A stretch of DNA of 43,880 nt, from the IMG/VR virus record IMGVR_UViG_3300040960_001422, positions 1 to 43,880 of that record. One strand, 5' to 3'. Source of the stretch: a virus. Within the stretch, counting starts at the first letter, position 1, and the number at the start of each line of letters is the position of its first letter. The position numbers and the translations under genes are program-made. Below, piece by piece: positions 10,613 through 39,470 of the stretch. Under the pieces are notes generated by a model that saw only the letters and a program-made list of their open reading frames with translations, was not told the origin of the DNA and did not search any database.

Positions 10613-10828
10613 ATGAACGTACAAATTGTTATTGCAACATTACAGAAAAAAATTTCTGATTTGACACTGACAAATGTTATGCTGGAGGCTAAAATTTCCG
10701 ATTTACAAAGTCAGTTAAATAGTATCAAAGAAACCCAAACTACTGAGAATGCTATAAATGGCAGCGGAACCTACGAGAATCAAACTCAAAAGATCGACGA
10801 CGGCGGCAGTAGTACCGACGACTTCTAA
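10613..10828 (+). CDS. Coiled-coil mini-protein overlapping the next fibre gene
   Basis: This is a 71-residue protein. Residues 5-38 form a coiled coil (IATLQKKISDLTLTNVMLEA and onward), followed by a disordered polar tail ending DDGGSSTDDF. Its last 71 bases overlap the first 71 bases of the 2409-residue fibre in another frame. The overlap encodes only the unstructured tail, so the constraint is tolerable. It starts 10 bases after the 552-residue fibre stop. Small coiled-coil ORFs before fibre genes occur elsewhere in this window (8125, 32649). A role in fibre oligomerisation or attachment is inferred; there is no named family. Confidence 0.65.
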   Translation: MNVQIVIATLQKKISDLTLTNVMLEAKISDLQSQLNSIKETQTTENAINGSGTYENQTQKIDDGGSSTDDF

Positions 10829-13800: not shown

Positions 13801-16800
13801 GATTGACTAATGGAAATACTTATTATGTAATCAGGGTAGATTCCGATACATTTAAGCTTTCAGCATCTCAAGGTGGATCGGAGATTAATATTACTACTAC
13901 AACAGGAACTCATAGTTTCTCTGGTGTTACTGCAACTGGAACGGTAACGTTGACGGGTGGTGTTGTTACTGGGGTTAATATTACCGATGGGGGATCTCTT
14001 TACAGTACGGCTCCTGGAATTACTTTAGATGTAACTCCAACTGGGTCAGAAGCACTGCTAAATTCTGTACTTGGGTTCTCTGTAGAGAGTGTAACTATTT
14101 CTTCTGGTGGAACATATACTGCAGCACCAAGCGTAGCATTCTCTGCCCCAGGTGGATCTGGAACAAGTGCAACTGGTACATCTGCTCTTGGATTCCCAAT
14201 TGCCTCTATTACATTAACAAATACTGGATCTGGATACAAAAATACTCCACGAGTATCCATCTCTGGTGGAACTCCAACTCAAGATGCTACTATTGATTTT
14301 GTATTAGATAAAACAACTGGAAGACCAAGTTCGGTCACTCTCAGTGACGCTGGTATAAACTATTCCTCAGCACCCACAATTACGTTTGTTGGGGGATCTG
14401 CATCAGATGGCACTGTCACTGCAACAGTTCAATCAATTGATGCAAACATTCAAAGTTCTGGATCTGGTTATGTTGCAGGTGTATACCAAGGTGTCGCATT
14501 AACTTCAACAACGGGTACTGGATCTGGTGCAACTGCAACTTTGACAGTTCCTGGATTGTCTGGAAGTATCACTGCGGCAGGATCTGGTTACGAAGATAAC
14601 ACATATACTTCTGTATCAGTTATTAATGAGGCATCAACTACCTACACCGTTGCTGTTGTATCTAGACAATCAGTATCTGTAGGAACAATCTCTGGAGGAT
14701 CTTTCAGCGTTGGTGGTAGTGTATCATTTAGTGGTGGTGCTACAGGAACAATTACATCCATTGATAAGAATGGTACAAACTTAAGATTTTCTAGTTTGTC
14801 TGCTGCTGTCAGTGGAGGAGAAACGGTAACCCAAGGTGGAGTTACTGCAACTACAGAAAATAGTCCAGCGACAATTGACGTATTTACTATCAATGGAACA
14901 GAAGGCGCTGCTATCAGTCTGCAAAATTATGATACTTACAAATTTGATCAATCTAATTCCACAAATGGAGGACATCCTCTAAGATTTTCTGGATTTAATC
15001 AAGACGAATCCGTATCAATAAGAGTAGGAACTCCAGGTCAGTCTGGAGCATACACTCTCCTAGTCATCACTTCCGCCCAAGCAGTAGTTTCTGATACTTT
15101 GTATTATGAATGTGAGACCCACGGTGAAGGTATGGGTCACTACGTACAAGTTACTAATGGTGCTGGATCTCCAGGAGTTTATGGTATTAATGCAACTGCA
15201 GATGTAACAGTTTCTGGTGGTCAAGTAACAGAATTTTCTCTTGTAAATCAAGGAACATATTATAAGATTAATGATGTAATTTCCGCCATTATTGGAACAA
15301 CTGGAAGTGGATTTGAATATACAATCAGTGCCAATGTTACTGGAGTTACATCGGTAACTGACTATTCCACATCTGCTGGTACTGGATATACGATTGGAGA
15401 TTCCTTGAGTGCGGATCCAACATTTGATGGAGCAGGAAATGGCGGTGGTTTTGCTCTATCTGTAACTAAAGTTGGTTTTGTAACTGACGTAATCGTTAAT
15501 AATGGCGGATTTAACTTCAGACCTGGAGAACTTGTTAGTGGAGAGGTTGTTGGATTTGAAACAACAGGAACAGAATCCGTATTCAATGTAAACACTGTAG
15601 TTGAAGAAGAAGTTGGCGAAATTAACTTCAAAGGCGAATTCGCATATCCAAATTTCACATTAGACGAACTTGGTAATTTTAATCTTGGTAGTGGAATATT
15701 CCAGCTAAACACTCCAACATCCACACTCACTTTCACTGGTACATCGACGTTTACTGGAAATTCCACGATAACTGGAACTTTAGCAGTTAATACTTCGATT
15801 AGTACCCCAACACTAACCACAACATTCTCAACGTCTCTTGCTGACGCTACGATTGCCCTTGACGAGGGTAGTGCATCAGCACCATCACTAAACTTTACCA
15901 GCGATGTTGATAGTGGTTTATTCTATGATCAGGTTAGTGGTGGGCAAAAGATTGGTATTGCAATCGCGGCAGCCCAAGTAGCTAAATTTAGCGCATCCAC
16001 CCAACGTCTTGTTGGAAAATTAACCGTAAGTCCAGATGTAAATGGCAGTGAACATTTCTTCACTGCTATTGATGATGGTGTAGATAAGTATTTGCAACTC
16101 GGAGAATCTAGTATCCTCACAGATTCTTCATTGAGAATGTATCCATCTAGCGGTACAGATTTTACATTAGACCTCTCTCAGAGTGGCGAAATTAATGTAG
16201 GACTGACTGTATCTGCAAAGGGATCTGGAGATTACAAATTCACTGGAGCTGGTTCTAGACAATTCTTAATTGGAGATAGTTCTGACGTTAACGCATTCAT
16301 ATTTGACTGCGATTCTGGAGAACTCTCTGTACCAAATGGCGTTGGAAGTGGACTTTTAAAATTAAAAGGACTTGAGCTTGCAAACTCCTCTACTGCTGCA
16401 CTTAGATCTTTTGGAGAAGTTGCTTCCGTAGCACTTTCTGGAACCGCAACAGGATATACTAATAATACCTACACTGGCGTTCCTTCTACTACAAATGGAA
16501 GTGGAACTGGAGCTACATTTGATGTTGTGGTTTCTGGTGGAGATATTATCACATGTACCCCAACAACAAATGGGAGGGGATATGGGTATGAAATTGGAGA
16601 TACAATCACATTAGATACTGCAACTATTGGATCTGGATCTGGTAAAACAATTACAGTATCCACCAGAGATGGATTGGGCGTAGAGATCAAACCATCTTCA
16701 AACAGAGACGTTAGAATCAAAACAACTTCTTCCCTTGTAATTCCAGCAGGTACTACAAACGATCGTCCAGCGGCTGAAGATAGACTTGCGGGTGCTATTC

Positions 16801-17987
16801 GTTTCAATACCCAACAACAGCAGTTTGAGGGATACAACGGTAGTGATTTTGTTTCTCTTGGTGGTGTTCGTGACGTTGACCAAGATACTTATATTCTCAC
16901 AGAATCCGCTCCTGGTGTAGATGAAGATACTTTTGAGTTCTATGCCGCTGGTGTCAACTTCTTAAGTTTAAATAACACAACTCAAACTTATGGAATTTCT
17001 TTAGTAACTGTAGTTCATGCTGGAGATTTTGAGTATAGAACACCAGGAACATTAACATTAAATGGAACATCTACAAGCGCCAATGCACTCAATCTTAATG
17101 TTTCTGGAAGCACAATCGCTTCGATTAGACCCAATAAAGATTTTGAATTAACTAATGGTTTGAGATTGCGTGCAGTACCAGCACAAGGTTCTGCAACCTT
17201 ACTTGACAATGCAACACTTACCCAAACTCTTGGTGCATACACACCAGGGCAGACATTTAATGGGTTGGCAACATCGGCTCAAATCGAAGGTACTGGATTG
17301 ACAGTAAATGTCAGTACAAATTCTAACGGCGATGTTGTAGCTATTGTCATTAGTTCTGGAGGAAGTAGATATGAAGTTGGTGAAGTAATTACTATTTCTG
17401 GAACTGATCTAGGTGGAACTGCAAGTGATACCGTAACAATTGAAGTTTCTGCAATTTCTGCAACAACTACTGAGTTTGCTCGTTTGGATATTCTATATCC
17501 AGAATATAGACTACAACTTCAATCTAAACCATTTATCAACTATGATGGTTTTGGTTCTCAAGCGGAATGGCAAATCAATCGTGGATGGAATGGCGGAACA
17601 GAATCCTATCTGACCGTATTTGATAGCACTGCTACATTCATGGAACTGGATGACTGCAGACTGGAAGGTGGTCAAATTTCTTCCTTCGGGGCATCTTCTA
17701 CTATCGTTCAGTTTGATAAAACATCTTTTAAGGGTGCAAAAACTCTGGTCACGATTGAGAGTGACGATGGTAAGGTTCATATGCTTGAAGTTACCTCGGT
17801 TTGTGCAGCATCTGGTACAACGGCGTATGCAACTATCACAAACTCTGTAACCTCTGCCAATGATTTGGTGGACGCAGATGTCGTGGTTGTTGGTAACAAC
17901 GTTCAAGTCAATCTGACAAAATCTGCTGCTGCAACTTCGTCCACTTCCTTCACTGGTAGGTTCACAACTACAAAGGTCAAGGTATAA
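10758..17987 (+). CDS. Giant tail fibre with beta-helix, LamG and cupredoxin-like domains
   Basis: This 2409-residue protein is modular. Residues 6-50 are a fibre hub (RIKLKRSTT, LVDGEVAVNIADRKIYVN). Residues about 76-286 form a pectate-lyase-like right-handed beta-helix (YYVATSGSN, FLTVAKALSVATAGDT, GVTLRGANL). Residues about 328-392 are a GHGL-type beta module. Residues about 433-633 are a LamG/concanavalin-like domain (FGTASLLLDG, GTWYHVAAAR, GHIDEIRVSKATARY). Beta-helix text then resumes (LLTAHNFAYIGSGAD). Residues about 867-1330 and later stretches carry many Gly-Tyr repeats. Residues about 1378-1465 are cupredoxin-like with His1406, Cys1452, His1455 and Met1459. The C-terminal segment (KTSFKGAKTLVTIES) is a typical cyanophage fibre end. 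Start 10758 is chosen because the hub begins there and the next Met is residue 64. It is probably a host-contact fibre; no lyase active site is evident. Confidence 0.82.
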   Translation: MAAEPTRIKLKRSTTAAVVPTTSNLVDGEVAVNIADRKIYVNNSGTIVEVANQKPNTGEVTTSMLATDITNGPGNTYYVATSGSNSNTLGSGGDNGKHPDTPFLTVAKALSVATAGDTVNIAAGTYQETFPLTVPDGVTLRGANLRSTQITPTPATNDLNAFILQGDCHVSDLTVKDFFYNSGNDTGYGFVCASSLDSDRSPYIERVSVLTKGSVTSASDPYGFAQGDAGRGAKLDGAVFSSNSIETAVLFNEVTFIVPNSVGLLLTNGVRVEWLNSFVYFAAEGIKGEQGATGRAGAGQTRLKLAGVSGTFSGGEVIYQLEDSFQSGTYSRTGTTVTVTKTAHGLVDGEVINADFISGTATDGYYTVANSAANTFDVTDTASGTTSGNITFKKADAYGTITTNDGTYLLINGKGVGEFTVGVPTGKTGVIAGDAQLDTAQQKFGTASLLLDGVTDHLSYPTSEDFGFGTTNFAFECFIRPTATTGTQYFLDFRDGSDTDTAPTMYLDGTTLHFAVGNTSQISGGTLSAGTWYHVAAARFGGTTRLFLDGTQLGTYTDSNDYGATKPLGIGGEYSGTNEFGGHIDEIRVSKATARYTGAFTAPTAAFTTDLNTVLLLHFDGTDGSTTITDSGKGVRDIRSSGGDSATSLLTADYAQFGAELRSISSANIYGTKGAIADGAGVKLLLTAHNFAYIGSGADFTNDPDLAIPANEVTETNGGRIFYSATNEKGDFRIGDAFVVDQQTGNVQFQSTSTAQEAANITLSDPTGTTRIFPAFVETGNLRLSGNTLSSTSGNVIIDPSANEDILLNAEVFAVEDIHLDNTKTVSIGRYDVGSFSVSVYEEDHTVVSGYGLTQFKNFRQSNFKLNDVTITNEGSDYPPGSYTFTNVVTPPDDPTTATATLSTTGSVKSIALTNQGSGYTTEPTVTFTPDVDSPTASVSLTTKGEVVSVNIDNGGSGYGSTPNATFSAPPSISVDADDSTSVDFGANTFTISDHNLVDDVRLIYDNGGNSNIGGLTNGNTYYVIRVDSDTFKLSASQGGSEINITTTTGTHSFSGVTATGTVTLTGGVVTGVNITDGGSLYSTAPGITLDVTPTGSEALLNSVLGFSVESVTISSGGTYTAAPSVAFSAPGGSGTSATGTSALGFPIASITLTNTGSGYKNTPRVSISGGTPTQDATIDFVLDKTTGRPSSVTLSDAGINYSSAPTITFVGGSASDGTVTATVQSIDANIQSSGSGYVAGVYQGVALTSTTGTGSGATATLTVPGLSGSITAAGSGYEDNTYTSVSVINEASTTYTVAVVSRQSVSVGTISGGSFSVGGSVSFSGGATGTITSIDKNGTNLRFSSLSAAVSGGETVTQGGVTATTENSPATIDVFTINGTEGAAISLQNYDTYKFDQSNSTNGGHPLRFSGFNQDESVSIRVGTPGQSGAYTLLVITSAQAVVSDTLYYECETHGEGMGHYVQVTNGAGSPGVYGINATADVTVSGGQVTEFSLVNQGTYYKINDVISAIIGTTGSGFEYTISANVTGVTSVTDYSTSAGTGYTIGDSLSADPTFDGAGNGGGFALSVTKVGFVTDVIVNNGGFNFRPGELVSGEVVGFETTGTESVFNVNTVVEEEVGEINFKGEFAYPNFTLDELGNFNLGSGIFQLNTPTSTLTFTGTSTFTGNSTITGTLAVNTSISTPTLTTTFSTSLADATIALDEGSASAPSLNFTSDVDSGLFYDQVSGGQKIGIAIAAAQVAKFSASTQRLVGKLTVSPDVNGSEHFFTAIDDGVDKYLQLGESSILTDSSLRMYPSSGTDFTLDLSQSGEINVGLTVSAKGSGDYKFTGAGSRQFLIGDSSDVNAFIFDCDSGELSVPNGVGSGLLKLKGLELANSSTAALRSFGEVASVALSGTATGYTNNTYTGVPSTTNGSGTGATFDVVVSGGDIITCTPTTNGRGYGYEIGDTITLDTATIGSGSGKTITVSTRDGLGVEIKPSSNRDVRIKTTSSLVIPAGTTNDRPAAEDRLAGAIRFNTQQQQFEGYNGSDFVSLGGVRDVDQDTYILTESAPGVDEDTFEFYAAGVNFLSLNNTTQTYGISLVTVVHAGDFEYRTPGTLTLNGTSTSANALNLNVSGSTIASIRPNKDFELTNGLRLRAVPAQGSATLLDNATLTQTLGAYTPGQTFNGLATSAQIEGTGLTVNVSTNSNGDVVAIVISSGGSRYEVGEVITISGTDLGGTASDTVTIEVSAISATTTEFARLDILYPEYRLQLQSKPFINYDGFGSQAEWQINRGWNGGTESYLTVFDSTATFMELDDCRLEGGQISSFGASSTIVQFDKTSFKGAKTLVTIESDDGKVHMLEVTSVCAASGTTAYATITNSVTSANDLVDADVVVVGNNVQVNLTKSAAATSSTSFTGRFTTTKVKV
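12054..12656 (+). other. LamG-like lectin domain nested in beta-helix fibre
   Basis: Residues 433-633 of the fibre show the LamG/Laminin_G_3 pattern: an entry strand QQKFGTASLLLDGVTDHLSY, the core FAFECFIRPT, the hallmark GTWYHVAAARFGGTTRLFLD, a GHIDEIRVSK strand and a closing LLLHFDG. Such jelly-roll domains commonly bind glycans. Flanking text on both sides belongs to the beta-helix, so the domain appears inserted. Confidence 0.8.
13362..14640 (+). repeat. Gly-Tyr repeat array in the 2409-aa fibre
   Basis: At least nine degenerate copies of a roughly 20-residue pattern, V-x-I-x-N-x-G-S-G-Y-x-x-x-P-x-V-x-F, follow each other, for example ALTNQGSGYTTEPTVTFTP, TLTNTGSGYKNTPRVSISG and TLSDAGINYSSAPTITFVG. 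Spacer length varies, and one copy is separated by a GGLTNGNTYYVI beta module (about 13700-13920). Further isolated copies occur near 15360, 15490, 16430, 16560 and 17340. Pairs of strands with a Gly-rich turn suggest a stacked beta shaft. Confidence 0.75.
14878..15160 (+). other. Cupredoxin-like domain in the 2409-aa fibre
   Basis: The segment contains NYDTYKFDQSNSTNGGHPLR, then GTPGQSGAYTLLV and finally LYYECETHGEGMGHYVQV. Candidate type-1 copper ligands are His1406 (GGHPL), Cys1452, His1455 and Met1459, in the order H...C-x2-H-x3-M used by blue-copper proteins. The same domain occurs in the protease at 34695-35039. Copper binding is inferred from the motif only. Confidence 0.65.
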
Positions 17988-28247: not shown

Positions 28248-29324
28248 ATGGGTGCTGTAAAAGCTGATATATTTACAAGGAATGGGAATCAAGGTGTGCT
28301 GGGTCTTCCTACGGGAACCACAGCACAGAGACCCAACCCAGCGAGTGAGGGGATGGCTCGCCACAATGTTAACACAGGTAAAGTTGAAGTTTACTTTGGT
28401 GGATCTTGGGTAAACCTAGATCCTTCGACTGGTGGTGCTGATGGATCTAGCGCAGGGAATGCATTTGCAAATCTCAAAGATATTGCAGGTCTCTATGAAT
28501 CTGGTGTTCACAACTTATATACCACTTTGGGTGGGAATGTAACTGCTTTCCAAATGCCAATCTCTTTCGACTTTGGTGGTCCTTGGTATGTTTTAAGTTT
28601 CAACTTCTCTAACTATGCACTAACCGAGGTAAACAACACTCAAGCATCATATGGGTATAACAATAGCACAGACGGTGCCCTGAAGAACATCAATAACAAA
28701 TATGTCCCTCACCATTTCTCTGGAAACATCAGAGAGAAGGCATATATTATGGCTGGGTCAGAACAAAACAGAGAAAACCAACCAGGGGCTGGGGCTACTA
28801 ACACTTCTGGATCTACATCATCTTACGATACTATTAACTATTACAATCACGCTACTGCATCCAACTTCAGTTCCACACAGTTGAATGTAATGCGAGATAT
28901 TGTAACTCAACTCTGTTGGGGAACGCCACACTTTACGTATAGTGCTGATAGTGATAATAATGGTACATCGAGTGGAACTCAGGACTGGTTAAATGATGAT
29001 TCTTCAAGAATTGGATATGGACACTGTAACTGGATTAGAGACAAGAACAATATTGCACAAAGAACCAGTAATGGTTTTGATGTAAATGATAACAATGGAT
29101 TTTCTGCATTCTGGACACACAACACATATCAAAGATATAGTATTCCTTGGAATTGGGGATTTACAAGTAACGCAGGAAATCCCACTGGTTTGAGAACAAC
29201 TGAGATGATTATCCCAAGTTCAATTAAATTTTATAATGGATCTGGCGGTGGATCTGCTTTTGGAACATACTTCAGTGGTATGGTTGGAAAAATTAACAAT
29301 AGACCAGTATTTCTCTGTAGATAA
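28248..29324 (+). CDS. Tandem adhesin A, fibrinogen-like receptor-binding protein
   Basis: First of three tandem paralogues (358 residues). The N-terminus (VKADIF, GLPTGTTAQRP, HNVNTGKVEVYFGGSW) is a short anchor used by many marine phage fibre-tip proteins. Residues about 78-120 (DIAGLYESGVHNLYTT, GGN, FDFGGPWYVLSFNF) resemble the first part of fibrinogen-like domains, where Gly-Leu-Tyr and GGPW correspond to the G-x-Y and GGGW landmarks. Residues about 200-225 read YYNHATASNFSSTQLNVMR. The C-terminal part has FWTHNTYQRY, PTGLRTTEMIIPS and GSGGGSAFGTYF. Fibrinogen-like domains bind glycans in other systems, so receptor binding is the best guess, though the fold is inferred. Compared with paralogues B and C, the anchor and the LYTT/GGN and GGGxAFG blocks are conserved while the middle differs. 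Confidence 0.75.
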   Translation: MGAVKADIFTRNGNQGVLGLPTGTTAQRPNPASEGMARHNVNTGKVEVYFGGSWVNLDPSTGGADGSSAGNAFANLKDIAGLYESGVHNLYTTLGGNVTAFQMPISFDFGGPWYVLSFNFSNYALTEVNNTQASYGYNNSTDGALKNINNKYVPHHFSGNIREKAYIMAGSEQNRENQPGAGATNTSGSTSSYDTINYYNHATASNFSSTQLNVMRDIVTQLCWGTPHFTYSADSDNNGTSSGTQDWLNDDSSRIGYGHCNWIRDKNNIAQRTSNGFDVNDNNGFSAFWTHNTYQRYSIPWNWGFTSNAGNPTGLRTTEMIIPSSIKFYNGSGGGSAFGTYFSGMVGKINNRPVFLCR

Positions 29325-30422
29325 ATGAGTAGAGTAGACGCTGACAATTTCTATACCGCAGGTGGTGCGGCAACTGGAGCAATCGGTCTCCCTGGGGGAA
29401 CTACTGCTAGTAGACCGACTAGCAATCTCCCGAGAGGTGGGTTGAGATATAATTCGGAACAAGATGTTCCCGAAGTATATAATGGTGGATCATGGGGATT
29501 TTTATCAAATCCAAAAAACGGAGCAAGTTCTGCTACTGCAATTGACTATCCATCTGATGTTGCTGGTTTGTATACTGGACAGACAAATCTATGGACAACT
29601 GCAGGGGGAAACGTCGCACCATTCCAAATTAGAATGGATTTTGACCGTCCTGGTGGTCCATGGTACATGACATCATTCAATTTCGCTACTGGAATCACCA
29701 GTGGTGGTATGAATAATGACATGGCAATGGGAACAAGCAGTGCCACCAATGATGGATTCAAAGGTGCATATAATGAAAATGTAGATATTGGTTTTGGGTT
29801 ACAATCTTTCCCATCTCTTTTTGGACATTCAATTACAGCAGTTCAGGGTGAAGGTATTACAGTTACAGGAGAAATAGCTACAGGAACTACTGCTGGCGTT
29901 ACAGCACTTCAAGATATTAACTATTACAATCACGCAACACAATCAAATTTTACAAGCTCTCAGTTGACTGCATTGAGATCATCTGTATCCAAGTTGTCAA
30001 TTGAAACTCCATTTGTAGCAATGGATTTTGACTCGGATGGTAATCAAACGACCCAGTTGGGTGATTCTTCTGGTGGTGCTTGGTATAACGGAAGAACCGA
30101 TCTTGGTGGTGCTTATGTTCATGTATTTTATATTGAGGATGAAGATGGAAATCAACAAAAGTTAGTTATTGGTGCAGCGGACTCATCAAATACTGGTCAG
30201 TGTTATGTTTGGACTCATAATCAATGTAACCATTATAGAGAATATCAAGATGGTGGCATTCAAGGTGAGGGAAATAAACCCCATGGTCTTCTAAATAGCA
30301 AAATGATACTTCCATCAAAGTGGAAGGTTTATACTGGATCTGGTGGTGGTGCTGCTTTTGGAGCATACTTCAATTCTAGCATTGGTAGATTAAACAGTAG
30401 AGTTGTATTTTTATTCAAATGA
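29325..30422 (+). CDS. Tandem adhesin B, fibrinogen-like receptor-binding protein
   Basis: Second paralogue (365 residues), starting directly after the stop of A. The N-terminal anchor reads VDADNF, IGLPGGTTASRP and GLRYNSEQDVPEVYNGGSW. The core motifs are DVAGLYTGQTNLWTTAGGNV, MDFDRPGGPWYMTSFNF, YYNHATQSNFTSSQLTALR, CYVWTHNQCNHYREY and GSGGGAAFGAYF. The stretch between residues about 125 and 195 differs strongly from A and C in length and sequence and lacks their Tyr/Asn-rich segment. That pattern, constant anchor and core with variable middle, is expected if the paralogues bind different host ligands. Its stop overlaps the start of adhesin C (ATGA). Confidence 0.75.
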   Translation: MSRVDADNFYTAGGAATGAIGLPGGTTASRPTSNLPRGGLRYNSEQDVPEVYNGGSWGFLSNPKNGASSATAIDYPSDVAGLYTGQTNLWTTAGGNVAPFQIRMDFDRPGGPWYMTSFNFATGITSGGMNNDMAMGTSSATNDGFKGAYNENVDIGFGLQSFPSLFGHSITAVQGEGITVTGEIATGTTAGVTALQDINYYNHATQSNFTSSQLTALRSSVSKLSIETPFVAMDFDSDGNQTTQLGDSSGGAWYNGRTDLGGAYVHVFYIEDEDGNQQKLVIGAADSSNTGQCYVWTHNQCNHYREYQDGGIQGEGNKPHGLLNSKMILPSKWKVYTGSGGGAAFGAYFNSSIGRLNSRVVFLFK

Positions 30423-31495
30423 GCCAAGTACAAGCAGATATTTTTAGTTCAGTTGGTGGTGATACTGGTGCTATGCAGTTGCCTGTTGGATCAACTGCAG
30501 ATAGACCATCCAGTGCTCTTCCAGGATATACAAGAGTTAATACAACTGAATCTACCATTGAAACGTATAATGGAAGCACTTGGGTTGCAATTAAAAAATT
30601 AGCCCCTGGCACTACAGCAGCAACGGCATTTGATAATTTATCTGAAGTTGCAGGTCTCTACACAGGACAACAAGTTTTGTGGACAACAGCAGGTAAAGGA
30701 TCTTCGATTATTCCATTTAAAGTTCTAGTTGATTTTGATCAAGCATCTGGTCCTTGGATTATTCTTGCCCCATATTTTACTGTTGCTGGAATACTATTAG
30801 GCAACAGGACAATGGCTGGTGCTGGATATAATCTGTCTGATGATGGTATATTCAAGCAGGGTGGATCTAGAAGTGAGGATATTGGTTTTGGATCCCAACC
30901 AATTTATGCTATGTTTGGATTTTGGGATCGTCAAGAATCTACCAGAGGTCAAATCGAAGCGGAAACATCTCCCGCATATTTTCCACATGAAAATACTCTG
31001 GATAATCAATCTTGGTATCCTATTTTCTATTACAACCCAGCTACACAAGATTTCTTTGCAGACGACCAAGTAGACGCTCTCCGTGATTATATTGGAACTC
31101 TCAATTCAAATACACCTTGGGTCGCAGTAGATTCTGACTCTGATAGTAACAGTAGCGGAAGTAATAATGTTACTTGGAATAGTTACACCACTACTGGATT
31201 GAGTAACGGACACACTTGTTGGATCAAAGACAAGGGAGGTAGCGTCCAAAGGATGCAAAATGCATTCTCTGGTAACAACTATACAATGGTTTATAAGTGG
31301 ACCAGAACAACATTTAATCGTTATGGAACTAGTTTCTCTCAAAGTAACGGAAGTCCATCTGGATTGATAAGCAATGCTATGATACTACCATCCTTCATGA
31401 AGTTTTTTGTTGGATCTGGTGGTGGTGCAGCGTTTGGTGTTTATAAAAACACCTTTAATGTTCACGCCCAAAGAAACTGTCTATACGTTAAATAA
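30419..31495 (+). CDS. Tandem adhesin C, fibrinogen-like receptor-binding protein
   Basis: Third paralogue (358 residues), overlapping B by four bases. The anchor is VQADIF, MQLPVGSTADRP and a VNTTESTIETYNGSTWV strand. Core motifs are EVAGLYTGQQVLWTTAGKG, VDFDQASGPWIILAPYF, FYYNPATQDFFADDQVDALR, YKWTRTTFNRYG, PSGLISNAMILPS and GSGGGAAFGVY. It is the most diverged: GGPW has become SGPW, the HAT motif is PAT, and the C-terminus (VHAQRNCLYVK) replaces the VFL ending of A and B. A and B match each other better than C does. A weak promoter-like GTTAAATA (31487-31494) overlaps its end, before the oxygenase genes. Confidence 0.72.
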   Translation: MSQVQADIFSSVGGDTGAMQLPVGSTADRPSSALPGYTRVNTTESTIETYNGSTWVAIKKLAPGTTAATAFDNLSEVAGLYTGQQVLWTTAGKGSSIIPFKVLVDFDQASGPWIILAPYFTVAGILLGNRTMAGAGYNLSDDGIFKQGGSRSEDIGFGSQPIYAMFGFWDRQESTRGQIEAETSPAYFPHENTLDNQSWYPIFYYNPATQDFFADDQVDALRDYIGTLNSNTPWVAVDSDSDSNSSGSNNVTWNSYTTTGLSNGHTCWIKDKGGSVQRMQNAFSGNNYTMVYKWTRTTFNRYGTSFSQSNGSPSGLISNAMILPSFMKFFVGSGGGAAFGVYKNTFNVHAQRNCLYVK

Positions 31496-31501
31496 TTTTT
31501 T

Positions 31502-32071
31502 ATGAATGAACCAATTGAATTTGGGAGCGTGCTTCCCCAAGAGTTGCACGCCGATCTTTATATGCATCTTTATAAAAAGGGTTGGAGATTAAAAAATAGA
31601 TCTCACCCCAAATCTAAGAGATTTTGGACTCAATACCAAGCAGACAATCCAGACTTCAAAAAAGCATCAAAAATTATTCTGGATAAGATTAAAGAATACA
31701 CAAATCGAAATATAAAGTGTGTTCGTATACATTGCAATGGACAAACATCAGGTCAAGATGGAACGGCACATACAGACTTTGCTGATGATGATGTTTGGAC
31801 CTTTGTATACTTCTCAAATCCAAACTGGGATGTCAGGATGGGAGGAGGTTTCAATGTCCTGAATCCAGTATTGCAACAACATCAGTATTATCATTATGCT
31901 GCTAACTATGGGGTTTTGATAAAATCAAATTGGCCACATTGGGGAGATTGTCCCAATTTTCATACAGACGAATTGAGAACTAGTATCGCATTCTCATACA
32001 CAATCTCCAAGAAGTATGATACAATTAGAAAAATAGCAAAAGAAAGTGAAGTTGGTAATGGAGAATATTAA
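31502..32071 (+). CDS. 2OG-Fe(II) oxygenase-like protein (first of pair)
   Basis: This is a 189-residue single-domain protein with the double-stranded beta-helix iron signature. HTD at residues 90-92 gives the His-x-Asp pair, His146 (NWPHW) is the probable third ligand (His154 is an alternative), and Arg159 in DELRTSIAFSY is placed to bind 2-oxoglutarate. A GGGFNVLNP strand follows the HxD motif, as in prolyl-hydroxylase-like phage enzymes. The reaction is 2-oxoglutarate- and O2-dependent hydroxylation; the substrate is unknown. It follows the three adhesins after a six-base gap and overlaps the second oxygenase by 14 bases, so the two are probably made together. Candidate targets are the neighbouring virion proteins or a surface glycan, which is inference from location only. 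Confidence 0.75.
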   Translation: MNEPIEFGSVLPQELHADLYMHLYKKGWRLKNRSHPKSKRFWTQYQADNPDFKKASKIILDKIKEYTNRNIKCVRIHCNGQTSGQDGTAHTDFADDDVWTFVYFSNPNWDVRMGGGFNVLNPVLQQHQYYHYAANYGVLIKSNWPHWGDCPNFHTDELRTSIAFSYTISKKYDTIRKIAKESEVGNGEY

Positions 32072-32624
32072 AATTATAGATGATGCTGTTGATTATGTTC
32101 AATATTCTCAATTAGCAAATTACATCACTGGACCAGAATTTAAATGGGAATATGCTAGTAGAATTGTCAGAGAAACATCCGACTTAGTATCAGAACCACC
32201 TCCAGAAAAATACAATCAGCAGATGTGTAGGGTTTTGTATTATAACCCACATATCCAAACAGAAGACTGGAGATGCTTAGATTCTGTTTTTAGAGTAGTT
32301 AAACCACTTTTACTAATCAAAGTAAAAGTCAATCTTACTTTTGGTACAGATAATCCAGTACGCACTGGTTGGCACACTGATAGTGGACCAGGAATTATGG
32401 AACATAGCACTACTGCAATTTGGTATGTAAATTCTAATAATGGTGGGACATTATTTAAGGATGAAGAAAATGATACCGAATTTTTTGTAGAATCTGTTGC
32501 AAATCGACTAGTAATATTTCCAGCTCACATCAAACATATGGGAGTTACTTGTACGGATGAGCGGGCAAGATTTGTTGTCAACATAAACTATATGGGGGAA
32601 AACCCTCTAGCTGGACAAGACTAA
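32058..32624 (+). CDS. 2OG-Fe(II) oxygenase (second of pair)
   Basis: This 188-residue protein carries a clearer signature than its neighbour. HTD lies at residues 106-108 (TGWHTDSGPG), a GGTLF strand at 129-133, His160 in FPAHIKHMG, and Arg171 in RARFVVNINY. The order His-x-Asp, GGTLF, FPxxxxH and R-x-x-V-N-I-N-Y is typical of small cyanophage 2OG oxygenases. I start at ATG 32058; a GTG at 32046 in frame would add four residues and a longer overlap. It resembles the upstream gene only in the iron motifs, so the pair need not be a recent duplication. The substrate is unknown. The stop overlaps a CTAAATA sequence (32621-32627) that may be a degenerate late promoter. Confidence 0.82.
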   Translation: MENIKIIDDAVDYVQYSQLANYITGPEFKWEYASRIVRETSDLVSEPPPEKYNQQMCRVLYYNPHIQTEDWRCLDSVFRVVKPLLLIKVKVNLTFGTDNPVRTGWHTDSGPGIMEHSTTAIWYVNSNNGGTLFKDEENDTEFFVESVANRLVIFPAHIKHMGVTCTDERARFVVNINYMGENPLAGQD

Positions 32625-32828: not shown

Positions 32829-33129
32829 AGCAAGGAAACTAGAACATCTAAGTTCTAGTATTAATCACGAACGTTTCGATGGGACAATGAAGACTTGTCC
32901 CTTCATTACTGGAGATCTATATGAGGGTAGAAAAATCCTCGGAATCTCTATGGCAAAAACTGGATATGGGTGGAACTACAGTCTTGTTGTTGAGGGAGAT
33001 GACACTCACGTCAGAACAAGATTTACCTTTAGCGACAAACATGATTTAATCTTTACGAAACCATTAGCACCTGCTGCTAGTAGGTTAAATAAAGATATTG
33101 AGATGAGATTACCTAATAATGCCGTCTGA
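32812..33129 (+). CDS. Hypothetical protein (105 aa)
   Basis: This is a small mixed alpha/beta protein with no domain I recognise. Visible segments are a polar N-terminus, CPFITGDLYEGRKILGISM, a strand pair around GYGWNYSLVVEGDDTHVRTR, and a final AASRLNKDIEMRLPN helix. The ATG at 32812 overlaps the coiled-coil gene by 17 bases, and an internal ATG at 32887 (MKTCPF) would give an 81-residue form beginning at the more ordered part. Two perfect hairpins lie between these starts, so the choice of start is open. The stop overlaps the aminotransferase start by 11 bases, suggesting coupled translation. Confidence 0.6.
   Translation: MPKSSEARKLEHLSSSINHERFDGTMKTCPFITGDLYEGRKILGISMAKTGYGWNYSLVVEGDDTHVRTRFTFSDKHDLIFTKPLAPAASRLNKDIEMRLPNNAV
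32839..32858 (+). repeat. Perfect inverted repeat, 7-bp stem
   Basis: CTAGAAC and GTTCTAG are separated by six bases (ATCTAA). The repeat lies 28 bases into the 105-residue ORF. No T-run follows, so it is not a standard intrinsic terminator. Confidence 0.55.
32881..32901 (+). repeat. Perfect inverted repeat enclosing an internal ATG
   Basis: GGGACAA and TTGTCCC are separated by seven bases (TGAAGAC). The internal start codon ATG 32887-32889 sits at the junction of stem and loop, so the hairpin could mask it. The repeat starts 22 bases after the previous hairpin. No T-run follows. Confidence 0.55.
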
Positions 33130-34321
33130 ACTTAGAGCGTGGACCAACGGTCAACTTGATAAGATTGTAACTAAAACAGAAAAGTATTGGGTGGAGTATT
33201 CCGATGGCACTCGTTTGCTCGATGTGCAATCTGGAAACTCCGCTTATATTTTGGGTTACGGAAACACAGAGATACTCAGTTCTATTGATTCTGATGTCAA
33301 CTTTGTGAGAGGTAACCGAGGGGAAACCTGTGAGTTGGCACAGGAAATGGTTCAGCATGTATGTGAGACTGGTAACTGGGATGTTTTATCATGGGCAATT
33401 TCTGGTTCATCTGCAGTAGAATCTGCAATCAAGATGAACGATCAGTATTGGGGAAACCCAGAAAATATCATCGTTACGTTCACTCCTAGTTTTCATGGCA
33501 CGACATTTCTCTGTCGTGCAATGGGTGATGATGATAACTATGTAAAGCGAATTAAAAAAGTACCGACACCTCTCTGGAAGAAGAAGGAAGATCAAGTATC
33601 TGCAGAGAGGAAGTCGTTTAAATATCTACAACTCTTACTCAAAACATATAGGGGTAAGGTTGGATGTGTTGTCATGGAAACTCTTCCTTGGTTGAAGGGT
33701 GGTATACCATGGTCACCTTCCTGGTGGAAGATGGTGCGTCATCTTTGCGATCAAGAGAATGTACTGATGGTCGTAGATGACGTGGCATGTTGCTGGGGTA
33801 AGTCTGGCAACTGGCATGGGTGGCAGAAGTATGGAGTTCAACCAGACATAGCAGCACTCGGTAAGTCTCTGACTGCTGGATACACTCCTCTAGGATGCTC
33901 TGTTGCTAATAAGAAAGTTGGCGATGTAATTAAGAATAAAGACTGGGAGTTTGGTCACACTTGGCAACCAACCATGACTGGAATCAAAGCAATGAGTAAG
34001 GTTGTGGAGATTATTAAAAGAGATGATCTCTTTTCGTTGACACCTCACATTGAGTTTTGCCTTAAGATGGTTGCAGAGCAACTTCTCGAACGCAAATATA
34101 TAACATCATATAGATGTGATGATCTCTTTTTGTCCATGGATCCACAAGAAAAGTACATGGATGCCAATGGAGATCTCAGCATGGAAGCATTCATGAATGC
34201 TGGATTGTCCTTAACGAAGACTAGAAATGGATCTATCCGCATCATTGCAAACTTTGTATCTGATGGAATTTATTTTCAACAGATGGAGAAGAGGTTAATA
34301 GAATTCTTCCAATCACAATAG
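33119..34321 (+). CDS. Class-III PLP-dependent aminotransferase-like enzyme
   Basis: This is a 400-residue fold-type I PLP enzyme of the class-III aminotransferase / glutamate-1-semialdehyde aminomutase type. Landmarks in order are DVQSGNSAYILGYGN near residue 35, the phosphate-binding SGSSAVESAIK (95-105), FHG (125-127), the cofactor Asp220 in VVDDVACCWGKSG, the Schiff-base Lys249 in PDIAALGKSLTAGYTPLG, and HTWQPTMTG (280-288), equivalent to the Thr loop. It is slightly shorter than the usual 420-450 residues but all core motifs are present. The usual Asp-Glu-Val after the PLP Asp is Asp-Asp-Val here. The substrate cannot be read from sequence: amino-sugar, semialdehyde or omega-amino donors are possible. 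It ends the run of enzymes placed between adhesins and protease. It overlaps the upstream gene by 11 bases and is followed by a late promoter. Confidence 0.85.
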   Translation: MPSELRAWTNGQLDKIVTKTEKYWVEYSDGTRLLDVQSGNSAYILGYGNTEILSSIDSDVNFVRGNRGETCELAQEMVQHVCETGNWDVLSWAISGSSAVESAIKMNDQYWGNPENIIVTFTPSFHGTTFLCRAMGDDDNYVKRIKKVPTPLWKKKEDQVSAERKSFKYLQLLLKTYRGKVGCVVMETLPWLKGGIPWSPSWWKMVRHLCDQENVLMVVDDVACCWGKSGNWHGWQKYGVQPDIAALGKSLTAGYTPLGCSVANKKVGDVIKNKDWEFGHTWQPTMTGIKAMSKVVEIIKRDDLFSLTPHIEFCLKMVAEQLLERKYITSYRCDDLFLSMDPQEKYMDANGDLSMEAFMNAGLSLTKTRNGSIRIIANFVSDGIYFQQMEKRLIEFFQSQ

Positions 34322-34358: not shown

Positions 34359-37300
34359 ATGAAAAGGGTAGTAGTCAGGGTATCTGATAATTACGAACTA
34401 GAAAGAGCAAAAAGTGCTATCCTTGCTAAGTTCAGTTATCTTACCTTTGTACAAAAGTTTAGAAGTTTTGGCATCCTCACTTTCGACGTTGCAGAGGGAA
34501 AGGAGGATGAAGCGATTATTGGTTTGGATTCGCTTCATTATGTAACTAGAGTAACATGGGATGGGGAAAAGTTCTCATGCAATCCAGTTGAAACTGCTAC
34601 CTTAACTGTAGACACGGATGGAGACGCTGAGGCAGTAGAGGAAGCACAGGGAGATGCAACAAGAAGCACAAGAAATATCACAACTGCTGGATCTGGTACA
34701 GTATATGTACAGGTACAAAACATCAGTGGTAATAACTATTTTGTTCTTGGATTAAATCCATCTGGTCCTTTTGCTAGATACTCAAACTTTACAGGATTCC
34801 TGCAGGGTGGTACGTATACCTTTGATACATCCGATAGTTCTAATACAGGACACCCATTTAGATTTTCTGAAACTCCAGACGGAACTCACACTGGCGGCGT
34901 AGAATCTACAGCGGGCGTTACCGTAAATGGTACTCCTGGTCAAGCAGGATCGTATACTAGGATTACCATTGGAAATACTGTTCCATCTATCCTGTATTAC
35001 TACTGCTCTACTCATTCTGGAATGGGTAGATATCAGACATCTCCTAATAGATATGGAACCATCAACGTCCACGATATGTGGCACCTTGATAGAATTACCA
35101 AGCAAGATCGTCAATACCTCAACAGACAATTTAGCTATACTGAAGACGGTGATGGTGTAGACATCTATGTTATTGATAGTGGTGTCCGTGGTGCTAGCAG
35201 ACCAACAGGAACTAACGCATCACTCCACCCAGAACTTTTTGATCCAGATAACGTTGCTGATCTGAATGGTCTTTCTGAGCAACAGAACTATAGAGTATAT
35301 GAACTAAGTCACTTCAGTGGACTTGGAAGCACCAACGAAGACGACAATGGTCACGGAACATATTGTGCTATCCTCTCTGCTGGTAGAACTGCTGGTGTTT
35401 CTAGAAAGGCAAAGATCTATGCCCTCAAGGCATTTAACAGTTCCCTCTCTGGAACATACACTGACATCCTGAGTGCATATCAGGCAGTTATTGATCACAA
35501 CGATCCTGCTGATGCAAACTACAAAGGTGATACTAGACCTGCAATCATCAACTCGTCATTTGGTCCAACTATCCCATCTGGAAGTTATCCATATGTTGAA
35601 CTGAATGATGCTGGTAATGATACTGGTACTGATGAAGAGATGCTCGATGATATTGAGAGCACAATCGTCGGTACATATAATGTAATGATTTCTCGTTCTG
35701 CGGGCAATGGTTTCATTGATTCTTCTAGTGAGTTTGCAGGACCATTACAGACAAGAATGGTTGCAGGTGCTAGAACCGCTGGATACAGTGATGGTGATGT
35801 CAACACTGTTGACGTGAACCAAAATAAAATTACTGTCGGTGCTACCGAATACAACGACCGTTGGGCAGACTTCTCCAACTATGGTTCTGGTTGTACTACA
35901 GTTGCTCCTGGTGCGAATATCCTCCTCCCAGAATGGAACTGGACTACTAATACCTCATATACTAGCACAGCAAACTACGATACCATCAATGGTACATCGT
36001 TCTCTTGTCCTATTGTAACTGGTATTCTTGCCTCTTGGACAGCAGCGAATGGTTACACAAGAGCAACCAACGGTCTCACAGGACTTTCAAAATCTTTCAT
36101 CAGAACAACTGGACCCACTGGTGATATCATCAAAGGTACTCACAGTTTATATCCAGTAAACAGCATTGAAGAAAGGAGACTTCCAGATAACCCATTTGAA
36201 TTTAATAGTGGATCTAACTTCGTACTTATTAGTTTCAACTCTGCAGATGCATCACACTTCCTAGGAAATGTTGGTAGTAAAGTCCAATTAAGAACTGGAT
36301 CTACCTCTCTGATCATTGCAGGTATCAACCTCGGTACAGAGGCATCCAATGGTTGGTTTACTATCCAAGCAGAGAGTGCTGTCAATAATACAATTACAAT
36401 CCAGACAGCAAACACACCAATCAATACAACAACTGGTGGTGGAACAAATAATTACCTTGCCCTCATCAAAGAGGATGAACTCACCCACGAAAGTATTGAT
36501 GGCGTAGTCTTCTCTGGAACAACACTCAGATCCCAGACCGACGCACAGGAAGCACAGGGAACTGGATCATACACAAACATCAAATACTATCCAGTAGATT
36601 CTGGTGTTGACTTTGATCTGTCTAGCACTGCCTCAGTTAAAACTGTAAACAGAGGTGCGTTCTATCCATACATTGATGTAGTAACAACCTTCGCCACTCC
36701 ATCTGGTGATGTTAGCAGTGGCGGATTTGCAAATGGTGCAACAGTAAATATTGACCTTGGATTGTCTACAGCAACTACATTTGCCAACGAACCATTCTAT
36801 GAAAGATACACAGTAACTGGTGACAATATCACTGCATCTGGATTAAGTGTCGGTGCAACCACTGGCGTTCTTTCTGGAACTGTAACCTCAGACTATATCG
36901 ATACAACCTTTAATTTTACAGTAACTGAAACCAATACTAATGTATCTAGAAACTACAGTTTCACTACAACTGGAACTGGAGTTCTTGTAACAATTACTCA
37001 ACAACCATCGGATGATTCTGTAGAATCTGGATCTGGTGGAACGGCAACATTTGGTCCTGTCTCTGGAACAAGCTCTGATGCATCTACGATCACTTTCCAG
37101 TGGGAAGTCTCAACAAACAGTGGAGCAAGCTGGAGCAACGTTTCTAATGGTGGTGGGTATAGTGGAGCAACAACAAATACATTAACTGTTGATGACGACT
37201 TCACTAAGAATGGATATCAGTTCCGTTGTGTTCTTGACACAGCAACTGCAGTATCTCCATCCACAACAAATGCTGTAACGCTTACAGTATTCAGAACAAT

Positions 37301-39470
37301 TACGATTAGTAATCAACCAACAAATCAATTCCCAGTAGCACCTGCTCCAGCTACATTTAGTGTTACCGCTTCTACATTGGACGCAGCAGCACTTGCATAC
37401 CAATGGCAGACTTCCGAAGACAATGTGTCTTACACACCTATCTCTGGAGCAACAAACGCATCCTATACCACGGGTACAACTTCTTATGATAATGACTTTG
37501 GTGATTATTATAGGTGTGTAATTAGTGTATCTGGTGCAACAGATGTAACATCCAGTGCTGCTAGAAACTTAGTAACTAGAACAATTACAGTTACTACCCA
37601 ACCAGTAAATGAGACTGGATCTGTTGGCGGTACTAGAACCTTCACAACTGCAGGAACAACCTCAGACAATGATGCTGGGGATATCACATTCCAATGGCAG
37701 TTCTCGATTGATAGTGGTGCAAACTGGTCGAACGTCACCGATGGAACGGGTGAAACGACTGACACTTACACAACAGCAACGTTAACTGGTACTGAAGATG
37801 GATATCAATACCGTTGTTTACTGTCTGCTCCTGGAGCAACAACAACTCCAACCAATGCTGCTACTCTTCAGGTAGAAACAGTAACTCCAGTGGTTGTAAC
37901 TCAACCACAAAATGCAACAGTCAATGAGAATGCAACTGCTACGTTCACAACTCTTGGAGATGTAACACTGACACCTATTGGTGGTAATGCAGCATCTTCT
38001 TCGTTTGATACAGAATCTTGGGTAACTCCATCTGGAGGTGGTGGAAACGAAGCAGGTACTGGACCTGGATTGGGTCTCATGTCAGATCACGAACCATCTG
38101 TAACTTATCAGTGGGAGCGTTCTGATAATGGCGGTTCTACCTGGACAGCCATCGTTGGCGCAACATCCCCAAGTTACACCACTGGCACACTGACATATGC
38201 AGATGACAATGGTGATCTTTATCGCTGTGAGATTGATGCTGTTGGTGCTGTATCTCCAGCGTATACAAACAACGCAACTCTTACAGTTCAAAGAACATTT
38301 ACGATTGATTCTCAACCAGCAAACCAAACTGGCAATGAGGGTGGAACTGCAACCTTTAGCGTAACCACATCTAGCAGCAGCGGAACTCCAACATACCAGT
38401 GGAGAAGATCTGATGATGGGGGTGCAAACTACGCAGATGTTGTAGGTGCAACTAACCCATCCTATACCACACCAGTATTAGTTTACTCTGATGATAATGA
38501 TGACAGATATTTGTGTAGAGTTTCTCTTGTAGGATCTGCTGGTGATATTGATTCTAGTTTTGCTCTACTTTCTGTTCTTAGAGTTATTACTATTACTGCT
38601 CAACCACAGAGCACTTCTGTAATTGAGGGTAACCAAGCAGTATTCACTATTGGTGCAACTATCACCAGTGACGTAGTGAGTTACCAATGGCAGAAATCTA
38701 CAGACGGTGGATCCAATTGGAACAACATCAATGGAGCAAATGGTGCATCCTACACAACTCCAGCAACAGTTTTCCCAACGACACCATCTGAGCAGTTCCG
38801 CTGCGTTCTCTCTAACGTAGCAGCAACTTCTGTTACTTCTGCTGTAGCAACTCTCACAGTAAATGAATCTGAATTTGTATCTGCTCCAGCAACAGTAACT
38901 CCTGTCATTGACCCAGATACAAACCTCACATTCAATAGAACTCCAGTCATCAACACTTCTGCATTTGTTCCAGAATATACTGGATCAACACACTTCTCCA
39001 GTTTCTGGAGAATCAGAAGAGTATCCGATAACGTTACAGTATACGATACATCTGGAACTTTTGCAAATGGAGATACTGGAAACCTGACATCATTTACTGT
39101 CCCAGGTGGAACCCTAGACTTCAACACAACTTACAATGTTCAGGTTAAGTTCAGAGATAATGCTGGACTGGAAAGTGCTTACACTGCTGCAGTCAATTTC
39201 ACAACTCCTATTGTTGATCAACCAGAGATCCAAACAATCACACCAGCGTTCAACCCAACAATCAATGTTGACCCAGCACAAATCATTAATGGTTATGTAC
39301 ATACCTCTAGTGATTGGCAGTTCTCTGGAGCAAATACGTTTACAACTATCGTACACCAGTCCCTCGGAAACTCGGTCAACTTGACTTCATATACACTCCC
39401 TGGTGGTGTAACTCTTGATCCAAACACTACATATTATGTGAGAATTAGATTCAACGTCAATCCATCCTAA
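34359..39470 (+). CDS. Subtilisin-like protease fused to cupredoxin-like and Ig-like domains
   Basis: This is a 1703-residue modular protein. Residues 1-67 resemble an inhibitor I9-type propeptide (VVVRVSDNYELERAK, then FGILTFDVA). Residues about 113-227 are cupredoxin-like with His165, Cys216, His219 and Met222. Residues about 240-560 are a peptidase S8 domain with Asp273 (YVIDSG), His332 (NGHGTYCA), oxyanion Asn450 (SAGN) and Ser547 (NGTSFSCP), all intact. After a beta linker and a putative-Ig segment come six Ig-like repeats (about 878-1505), each with a Y/F-Q-W strand and a Y/F-R-C-like strand, then two FN3-like domains. There is no signal peptide. Position between the adhesin/enzyme block and gp13, under a late promoter, points to a virion protein. 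It may process fibres during assembly or digest host surface proteins; the target is unknown. Confidence 0.85.
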   Translation: MKRVVVRVSDNYELERAKSAILAKFSYLTFVQKFRSFGILTFDVAEGKEDEAIIGLDSLHYVTRVTWDGEKFSCNPVETATLTVDTDGDAEAVEEAQGDATRSTRNITTAGSGTVYVQVQNISGNNYFVLGLNPSGPFARYSNFTGFLQGGTYTFDTSDSSNTGHPFRFSETPDGTHTGGVESTAGVTVNGTPGQAGSYTRITIGNTVPSILYYYCSTHSGMGRYQTSPNRYGTINVHDMWHLDRITKQDRQYLNRQFSYTEDGDGVDIYVIDSGVRGASRPTGTNASLHPELFDPDNVADLNGLSEQQNYRVYELSHFSGLGSTNEDDNGHGTYCAILSAGRTAGVSRKAKIYALKAFNSSLSGTYTDILSAYQAVIDHNDPADANYKGDTRPAIINSSFGPTIPSGSYPYVELNDAGNDTGTDEEMLDDIESTIVGTYNVMISRSAGNGFIDSSSEFAGPLQTRMVAGARTAGYSDGDVNTVDVNQNKITVGATEYNDRWADFSNYGSGCTTVAPGANILLPEWNWTTNTSYTSTANYDTINGTSFSCPIVTGILASWTAANGYTRATNGLTGLSKSFIRTTGPTGDIIKGTHSLYPVNSIEERRLPDNPFEFNSGSNFVLISFNSADASHFLGNVGSKVQLRTGSTSLIIAGINLGTEASNGWFTIQAESAVNNTITIQTANTPINTTTGGGTNNYLALIKEDELTHESIDGVVFSGTTLRSQTDAQEAQGTGSYTNIKYYPVDSGVDFDLSSTASVKTVNRGAFYPYIDVVTTFATPSGDVSSGGFANGATVNIDLGLSTATTFANEPFYERYTVTGDNITASGLSVGATTGVLSGTVTSDYIDTTFNFTVTETNTNVSRNYSFTTTGTGVLVTITQQPSDDSVESGSGGTATFGPVSGTSSDASTITFQWEVSTNSGASWSNVSNGGGYSGATTNTLTVDDDFTKNGYQFRCVLDTATAVSPSTTNAVTLTVFRTITISNQPTNQFPVAPAPATFSVTASTLDAAALAYQWQTSEDNVSYTPISGATNASYTTGTTSYDNDFGDYYRCVISVSGATDVTSSAARNLVTRTITVTTQPVNETGSVGGTRTFTTAGTTSDNDAGDITFQWQFSIDSGANWSNVTDGTGETTDTYTTATLTGTEDGYQYRCLLSAPGATTTPTNAATLQVETVTPVVVTQPQNATVNENATATFTTLGDVTLTPIGGNAASSSFDTESWVTPSGGGGNEAGTGPGLGLMSDHEPSVTYQWERSDNGGSTWTAIVGATSPSYTTGTLTYADDNGDLYRCEIDAVGAVSPAYTNNATLTVQRTFTIDSQPANQTGNEGGTATFSVTTSSSSGTPTYQWRRSDDGGANYADVVGATNPSYTTPVLVYSDDNDDRYLCRVSLVGSAGDIDSSFALLSVLRVITITAQPQSTSVIEGNQAVFTIGATITSDVVSYQWQKSTDGGSNWNNINGANGASYTTPATVFPTTPSEQFRCVLSNVAATSVTSAVATLTVNESEFVSAPATVTPVIDPDTNLTFNRTPVINTSAFVPEYTGSTHFSSFWRIRRVSDNVTVYDTSGTFANGDTGNLTSFTVPGGTLDFNTTYNVQVKFRDNAGLESAYTAAVNFTTPIVDQPEIQTITPAFNPTINVDPAQIINGYVHTSSDWQFSGANTFTTIVHQSLGNSVNLTSYTLPGGVTLDPNTTYYVRIRFNVNPS
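34695..35039 (+). other. Cupredoxin-like domain in the protease protein
   Basis: The domain reads, in part, GGTYTFDTSDSSNTGHPFRF, GTPGQAGSYTRITI and ILYYYCSTHSGMG. His165, Cys216, His219 and Met222 reproduce the type-1 copper ligand order with the amicyanin-style spacing C-x2-H-x2-M. It lies between the propeptide-like region and the catalytic domain. Copper binding is inferred; a structural role without metal is possible. Confidence 0.7.
36990..38870 (+). repeat. Six tandem Ig-like repeats
   Basis: Six units of about 95-140 residues follow each other. Each opens with a x-I/V-x-x-Q-P strand (ITQQPSD, ISNQPTN, VTTQPVN, VVTQPQN, IDSQPAN, ITAQPQS), then a QW strand (FQWEV, YQWQT, FQWQF, YQWER, YQWRR, YQWQK) and a C strand (QFRCVL, YYRCVI, QYRCLL, LYRCEI, RYLCRV, QFRCVL). 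Unit 4 carries an extra Gly-rich loop near nt 37970-38090. Ig-like arrays on phage virions often bind weakly to cell-surface glycans. Confidence 0.8.

Follow-up and report, generated by a model that had tools for sequence, protein, structure and literature searches.

A viral genome of 43,880 nucleotides (IMG/VR record IMGVR_UViG_3300040960_001422, positions 1–43,880; hereafter the window) encodes a 1703-aa subtilase protein in which a cupredoxin domain carrying the ligand set of a type-1 copper site lies between a propeptide-like part and the catalytic domain. Judging from sequence comparisons, we conclude that this cupredoxin recurs as a module in the tail, baseplate and fibre proteins of marine phages. 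We consider it probable (roughly 0.6) that the module holds one type-1 copper and serves in stapling or adhesion, not in electron transfer.

A cupredoxin domain within a phage subtilase

The window belongs to a relative of the Prochlorococcus phages P-HM1, P-HM2 and MED4-213 (gp15 77–78% identical). The gene for the 1703-aa protein (34359–39470, + strand), delimited by its open reading frame, its PF00082 match and its P-HM2 orthologue, encodes in order a propeptide fold, the cupredoxin domain, an S8 subtilase catalytic domain and Ig-like C-terminal repeats, the last of which give weak matches in Pfam. The orthologue in P-HM2, PHM2_106, occupies the same place, directly upstream of gp13-gp14-gp15, and is annotated as hypothetical with PF07686 (Ig V-set) alone. 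Gene position and domain content suggest that the subtilase protein may be located in the virion.

The cupredoxin domain spans residues 102–239 (34662–35075, + strand), as delimited by conservation, fold and profile matches. It contains the motifs GHPFRF (residues 164–169) and YYYCSTHSGMG (residues 213–223), and the four residues that the initial annotation had picked out within them, His165, Cys216, His219 and Met222, are all exactly where it placed them. The interval that it gave for the domain, 34695–35039 (residues 113–227), does hold the domain, the conserved extent of which is slightly larger. His165 (34851–34853, + strand) is a predicted equatorial copper ligand and aligns with amicyanin H53, while the C-x2-H-x2-M loop (35004–35024, + strand) places Cys216 (35004–35006), His219 (35013–35015) and Met222 (35022–35024) on amicyanin C92, H95 and M98.

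The surrounding genes have features of their own. Directly before the subtilase gene, and within the tail gene cluster, lies a gene for a class-III aminotransferase (PF00202, 7.5e-47; 33119–34321). Three tandem genes at 28248–31495 encode paralogues of 358–365 aa with 35–38% mutual identity, and unnamed PHROG families match their N-terminal ~50–110 residues only. The matches of a 192-aa protein (32046–32624) include 2OG-Fe(II) oxygenase families as well as phrog_274, whose name, DNA endonuclease V, may be incorrect.

On either side of the cupredoxin, the protein resembles the precursor of a subtilisin. The catalytic domain (residues 264–569; 35148–36065, + strand) matches PF00082 at 5.6e-25, with a triad of D273, H332 and S547 that is present in 44/44 aligned sequences. 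Residues 1–75 (34359–34583, + strand) form a beta-alpha-beta-beta-alpha-beta domain with the subtilisin-propeptide fold, as seen from the secondary structure of an AlphaFold model and from superposition. The model of residues 1–614, which is of modest confidence (pLDDT 68.6), can be superposed, starting at residue 1, on pro-subtilisin E (3whi, Z 29.9) and pro-Tk-subtilisin (2e1p, Z 27.7), and also on PCSK9 with its prodomain (Z 30.4). The superposed length was 310–334 residues on pro-forms versus ~260 on mature enzymes alone. At the sequence level, the N-terminal part of the 1703-aa protein had no match to known propeptides, and its assignment follows from the superposition of folds. The proposal that the cupredoxin sits between propeptide-like and catalytic parts is therefore borne out by superposition on pro-subtilisins.

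Fold and homology of the domain

When the domain alone was folded with 32 orthologues, AlphaFold returned a model with pLDDT 91.3 and pTM 0.85. Foldseek against the PDB retrieved two-domain laccases and SO1698 (best E 1.5e-3), and the VIA-align neighbours included nitrite reductase, factor VIII, laccases, ceruloplasmin and rusticyanin (Z 6.7–7.8), with almost all rows being cupredoxins and an rmsd mostly near 3 over 95–115 residues. Structural Z scores below 8 would be no proof alone, since the common arrangement by itself can score so. The Greek-key cupredoxin fold that had been proposed nevertheless gains support from the model, the neighbours of which are overwhelmingly cupredoxins, as judged by superposition.

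The link in sequence is distant. Searched by itself against the PDB, Pfam and NCBIfam, the window domain matched no Pfam family and no PDB cupredoxin, and when a profile was limited to close orthologues, its alignment with amicyanin covered 11 residues only. The sequence link to cupredoxins appears with a profile of the wider family, which was built from ten diverse copies, all chosen with intact H-C-H-M, so that its invariant columns are no independent evidence of conservation. Against the PDB, this profile matched copper nitrite reductase (5.7e-7), plastocyanin (3.7e-5), pseudoazurin (8.4e-5) and amicyanin (1.8e-4). Of the 60 matches listed, 59 were copper proteins. Alignment of the family with amicyanin plus plastocyanin by hhalign gave a probability of 95.6% (E 1.3e-8) and placed the ligands opposite the known ones. 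In addition, the second domain of one orthologue (L133, residues 666–786) passes the cut-off of the Pfam family Copper-bind (PF00127; 21.6 versus 21.2 bits). On the strength of the family-profile matches, the hhalign alignment and the Copper-bind match, the domain belongs to the cupredoxin superfamily, as a genuine if distant member, through homology and not by resemblance only.

Conservation of the ligand set

Two sets of sequences were used to follow the ligands. Among 66 distinct domain copies from orthologues of the 1703-aa subtilase, H165 is kept in all 66, C216 and H219 in 60 each, and M222 in 59, with Leu in one further copy; His177, a non-ligand residue of the same domain, is kept in 47. 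The second, wider set comprised 94 copies of <80% identity and included copies from tail fibres. Here the first His is present in 92/94, the Cys in 91/94 and the second His in 91/94, and the axial position is Met in 83, Gln in 7, Leu in 1 and Tyr in 3, counts that carry a slight bias towards intact sites, as the fibre copies came from single-domain queries and some search peptides touch C, H or M. Three of the ligand columns rank among the seven most conserved in the 94 copies, and the axial one is ninth. Across marine phage homologues, then, the ligand positions do not vary freely, and the motif is no coincidence. Some orthologues have the Gln form in their C-terminal copies. Axial Gln is known from stellacyanin, and axial Leu from fungal laccases and ceruloplasmin.

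The C-x2-H-x2-M spacing of the window domain (CSTHSGM) recurs in 83/94 copies. In 82/94, the first His is followed by Pro, at a position where amicyanin and plastocyanin have His-Asn. The label "amicyanin-like" that the domain had been given thus holds for the spacing of the loop and not for the motif around the first His, which is HP[FL]. A single Cys is present in 84/94 copies, and because most copies have just one, C216 as half of an intradomain disulfide can be ruled out. The conserved ligands, the axial variants and the single Cys fit a functional type-1 copper site, as read from the alignments, and the domain very probably binds copper.

In the six orthologue copies without the Cys, the second His and the Met are missing as well. 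On the tree of the catalytic domain, such sequences (4/44 rows) form a single clade with support of 100/100, and the joint loss of C, H and M therefore counts as one observation. The protease triad D273, H332 and S547 is retained in this clade, in which, since the domain itself was kept, copper is dispensable. Separately, a divergent post-catalytic copy, seen at residues 688–787 of L071, at residues 728–829 of L080 and in their relatives, keeps C-x2-H-x2-M and has Val at the first His, possibly reflecting a misalignment or a site without one ligand.

A recurrent module of marine phage structural proteins

The initial annotation had treated the cupredoxin as a special feature of a structural protease. 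This did not hold up, as the domain recurs in tail fibres, in the baseplate wedge of the window itself and in other structural proteins. In the window, a search with the profile (E 2e-18) identified a second cupredoxin domain at residues 1372–1468 (14871–15161, + strand) of a 2409-aa protein (10758–17987, + strand) assigned to the baseplate wedge by phrog_32294. Its ligands are H1406, C1452, H1455 and M1459, with a spacing of C-x2-H-x3-M. The same baseplate-wedge protein also has a concanavalin/laminin-G-like lectin domain (PF13385, 8.5e-17).

Beyond the window, tblastn found relatives in 201 phage records, all of them Synechococcus, Prochlorococcus, Pelagibacter, Methylophilales, cyanophage or uncultured/marine, and mostly annotated as tail fibre, structural or hypothetical protein. 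In PHROGs, related domains belong to families of tail fibres, baseplate wedges and connectors. Individual phages carry several copies (P-HM2 has five in three proteins, and P-SSM2 four), and many subtilase orthologues have one to three extra copies after the catalytic domain. With respect to a host origin, 80 further genomes of the host family yielded two weak matches only outside a phage contig. One host-family bacterial genome, L326 (G069), encodes a similar SHPF...YCTAHSSM domain in frame 1 at about residue 593.

A possible role for the copper site

Cupredoxins are known as electron carriers and as parts of oxidases, and plastocyanin is among the metabolic genes known from phages. A copper-type site conserved as a recurring component of tail proteins would be a use other than that of an electron carrier or a metabolic gene. 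We suggest that the most likely role of the metal is in a copper-stapled surface or adhesion module. The subtilase would fold with its propeptide and then cleave itself in the disordered linker at residues 76–104, a step that we infer from the superposition on pro-subtilisins together with the low confidence of the model in this linker; the mature protease would then begin with the cupredoxin. On or after release, the domain on the free particle would take up one copper ion at a type-1 site with H165, C216 and H219 as equatorial ligands and M222 as the axial one. The bound copper would lock the beta-sandwich and shape a surface used to contact the host or adjacent proteins of the virion.

An alternative is a redox role at the host envelope, where the copper site would act as a sensor or accept electrons in the manner of plastocyanin in the thylakoid. 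The ligand set is indeed that of electron-carrying blue-copper proteins, down to the axial variants Met, Gln and Leu. However, the two cupredoxin-bearing proteins of the window showed no redox partner domain, and copies are located in long structural fibres, which makes a redox role unlikely.

In the orthologues examined, the domain comes after the propeptide fold and before the catalytic domain, an order that would also suit a metal-gated switch, in which copper on the cupredoxin controls release of the propeptide and turns on the protease outside the cell. Yet tail fibres and baseplate proteins lacking any protease have the same ligand set, and control of proteolysis is therefore an unlikely function for the site; moreover, the clade without copper ligands retains the full catalytic triad. 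This activation switch, one of the roles first put forward for the domain, is accordingly disfavoured, and we regard it as improbable.

Copper-free domains with a cupredoxin fold are common, and the loss of three ligands in one clade could be taken to mean that the phage domain is degenerate, a beta-sandwich used for adhesion after metal binding was lost. Outside that clade, however, few columns of this fast-diverging domain are as well conserved as those of the ligands, while the non-ligand H177 varies, and we think it improbable that the family as a whole is degenerate. Least probable is that the site holds zinc, iron or nickel in vivo, for example as a receptor mimic of the kind proposed for iron in the published tail-fibre HxH sites and Trojan Horse idea (PMC11705849), since His-Cys-His-Met/Gln on a cupredoxin scaffold is a classical copper site and differs from the HxH iron site.

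Recognising the domain as a cupredoxin bears on several matters. A domain that is common in marine phage genomes and had no name now has one, and the copper-type site raises the possibility of a new metal step in cyanophage infection and of a biological source for the strong copper ligands of the ocean. In the open-licence literature, which mostly leaves out subscription papers and so provides weak evidence of absence, no paper linked a cupredoxin with a phage tail fibre; cupredoxin and cyanophage occurred together only in one paper on Borg elements, and searches on cyanophage subtilisins and on copper in tail fibres turned up no mention of the domain.

Comparison with known systems

The phage domain shares with amicyanin and plastocyanin the cupredoxin fold and the ligands H...C-x2-H-...-M, with the C-x2-H-x2-M spacing of amicyanin. 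It differs from them in having HP[FL] in place of HN and in sitting inside giant phage proteins, and it is not known to have a redox partner. Methylamine dehydrogenase, the partner of amicyanin, would hardly be expected in a cluster of phage tail genes. The multicopper oxidases, copper nitrite reductases and ceruloplasmin/factor VIII are the best structural neighbours, nitrite reductases being the best profile matches, and we take the HPF of the window domain to resemble the type-1 HPFHLHGH motif of multicopper oxidases. In contrast to those proteins, the phage domains occur singly, scattered in structural proteins, and no type-2 or type-3 copper motif was noted in the window domain.

Compared with the S8 pro-subtilisins (pro-subtilisin E, pro-Tk-subtilisin and PCSK9), the 1703-aa protein has the same propeptide fold and catalytic domain with an intact triad, whereas the cupredoxin between the two and the Ig-like C-terminal repeats set it apart.

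The nearest published idea concerns HxH motifs that bind iron in T4 gp37 and in marine tail fibres, known as the Ferrojan or Trojan Horse hypothesis (PMC11705849). In both cases a phage tail protein has a conserved site for a metal, but the phage cupredoxin differs in fold and ligands, and copper, not iron, is expected in it. Tentatively, and with odds well short of even, marine cyanophage particles might carry several type-1 copper centres in their tail machinery, use them in adsorption to or infection of copper-sensitive hosts, and add to the strong copper ligands of seawater. If so, such copper-carrying particles would be a copper counterpart to the iron of the Trojan Horse idea.
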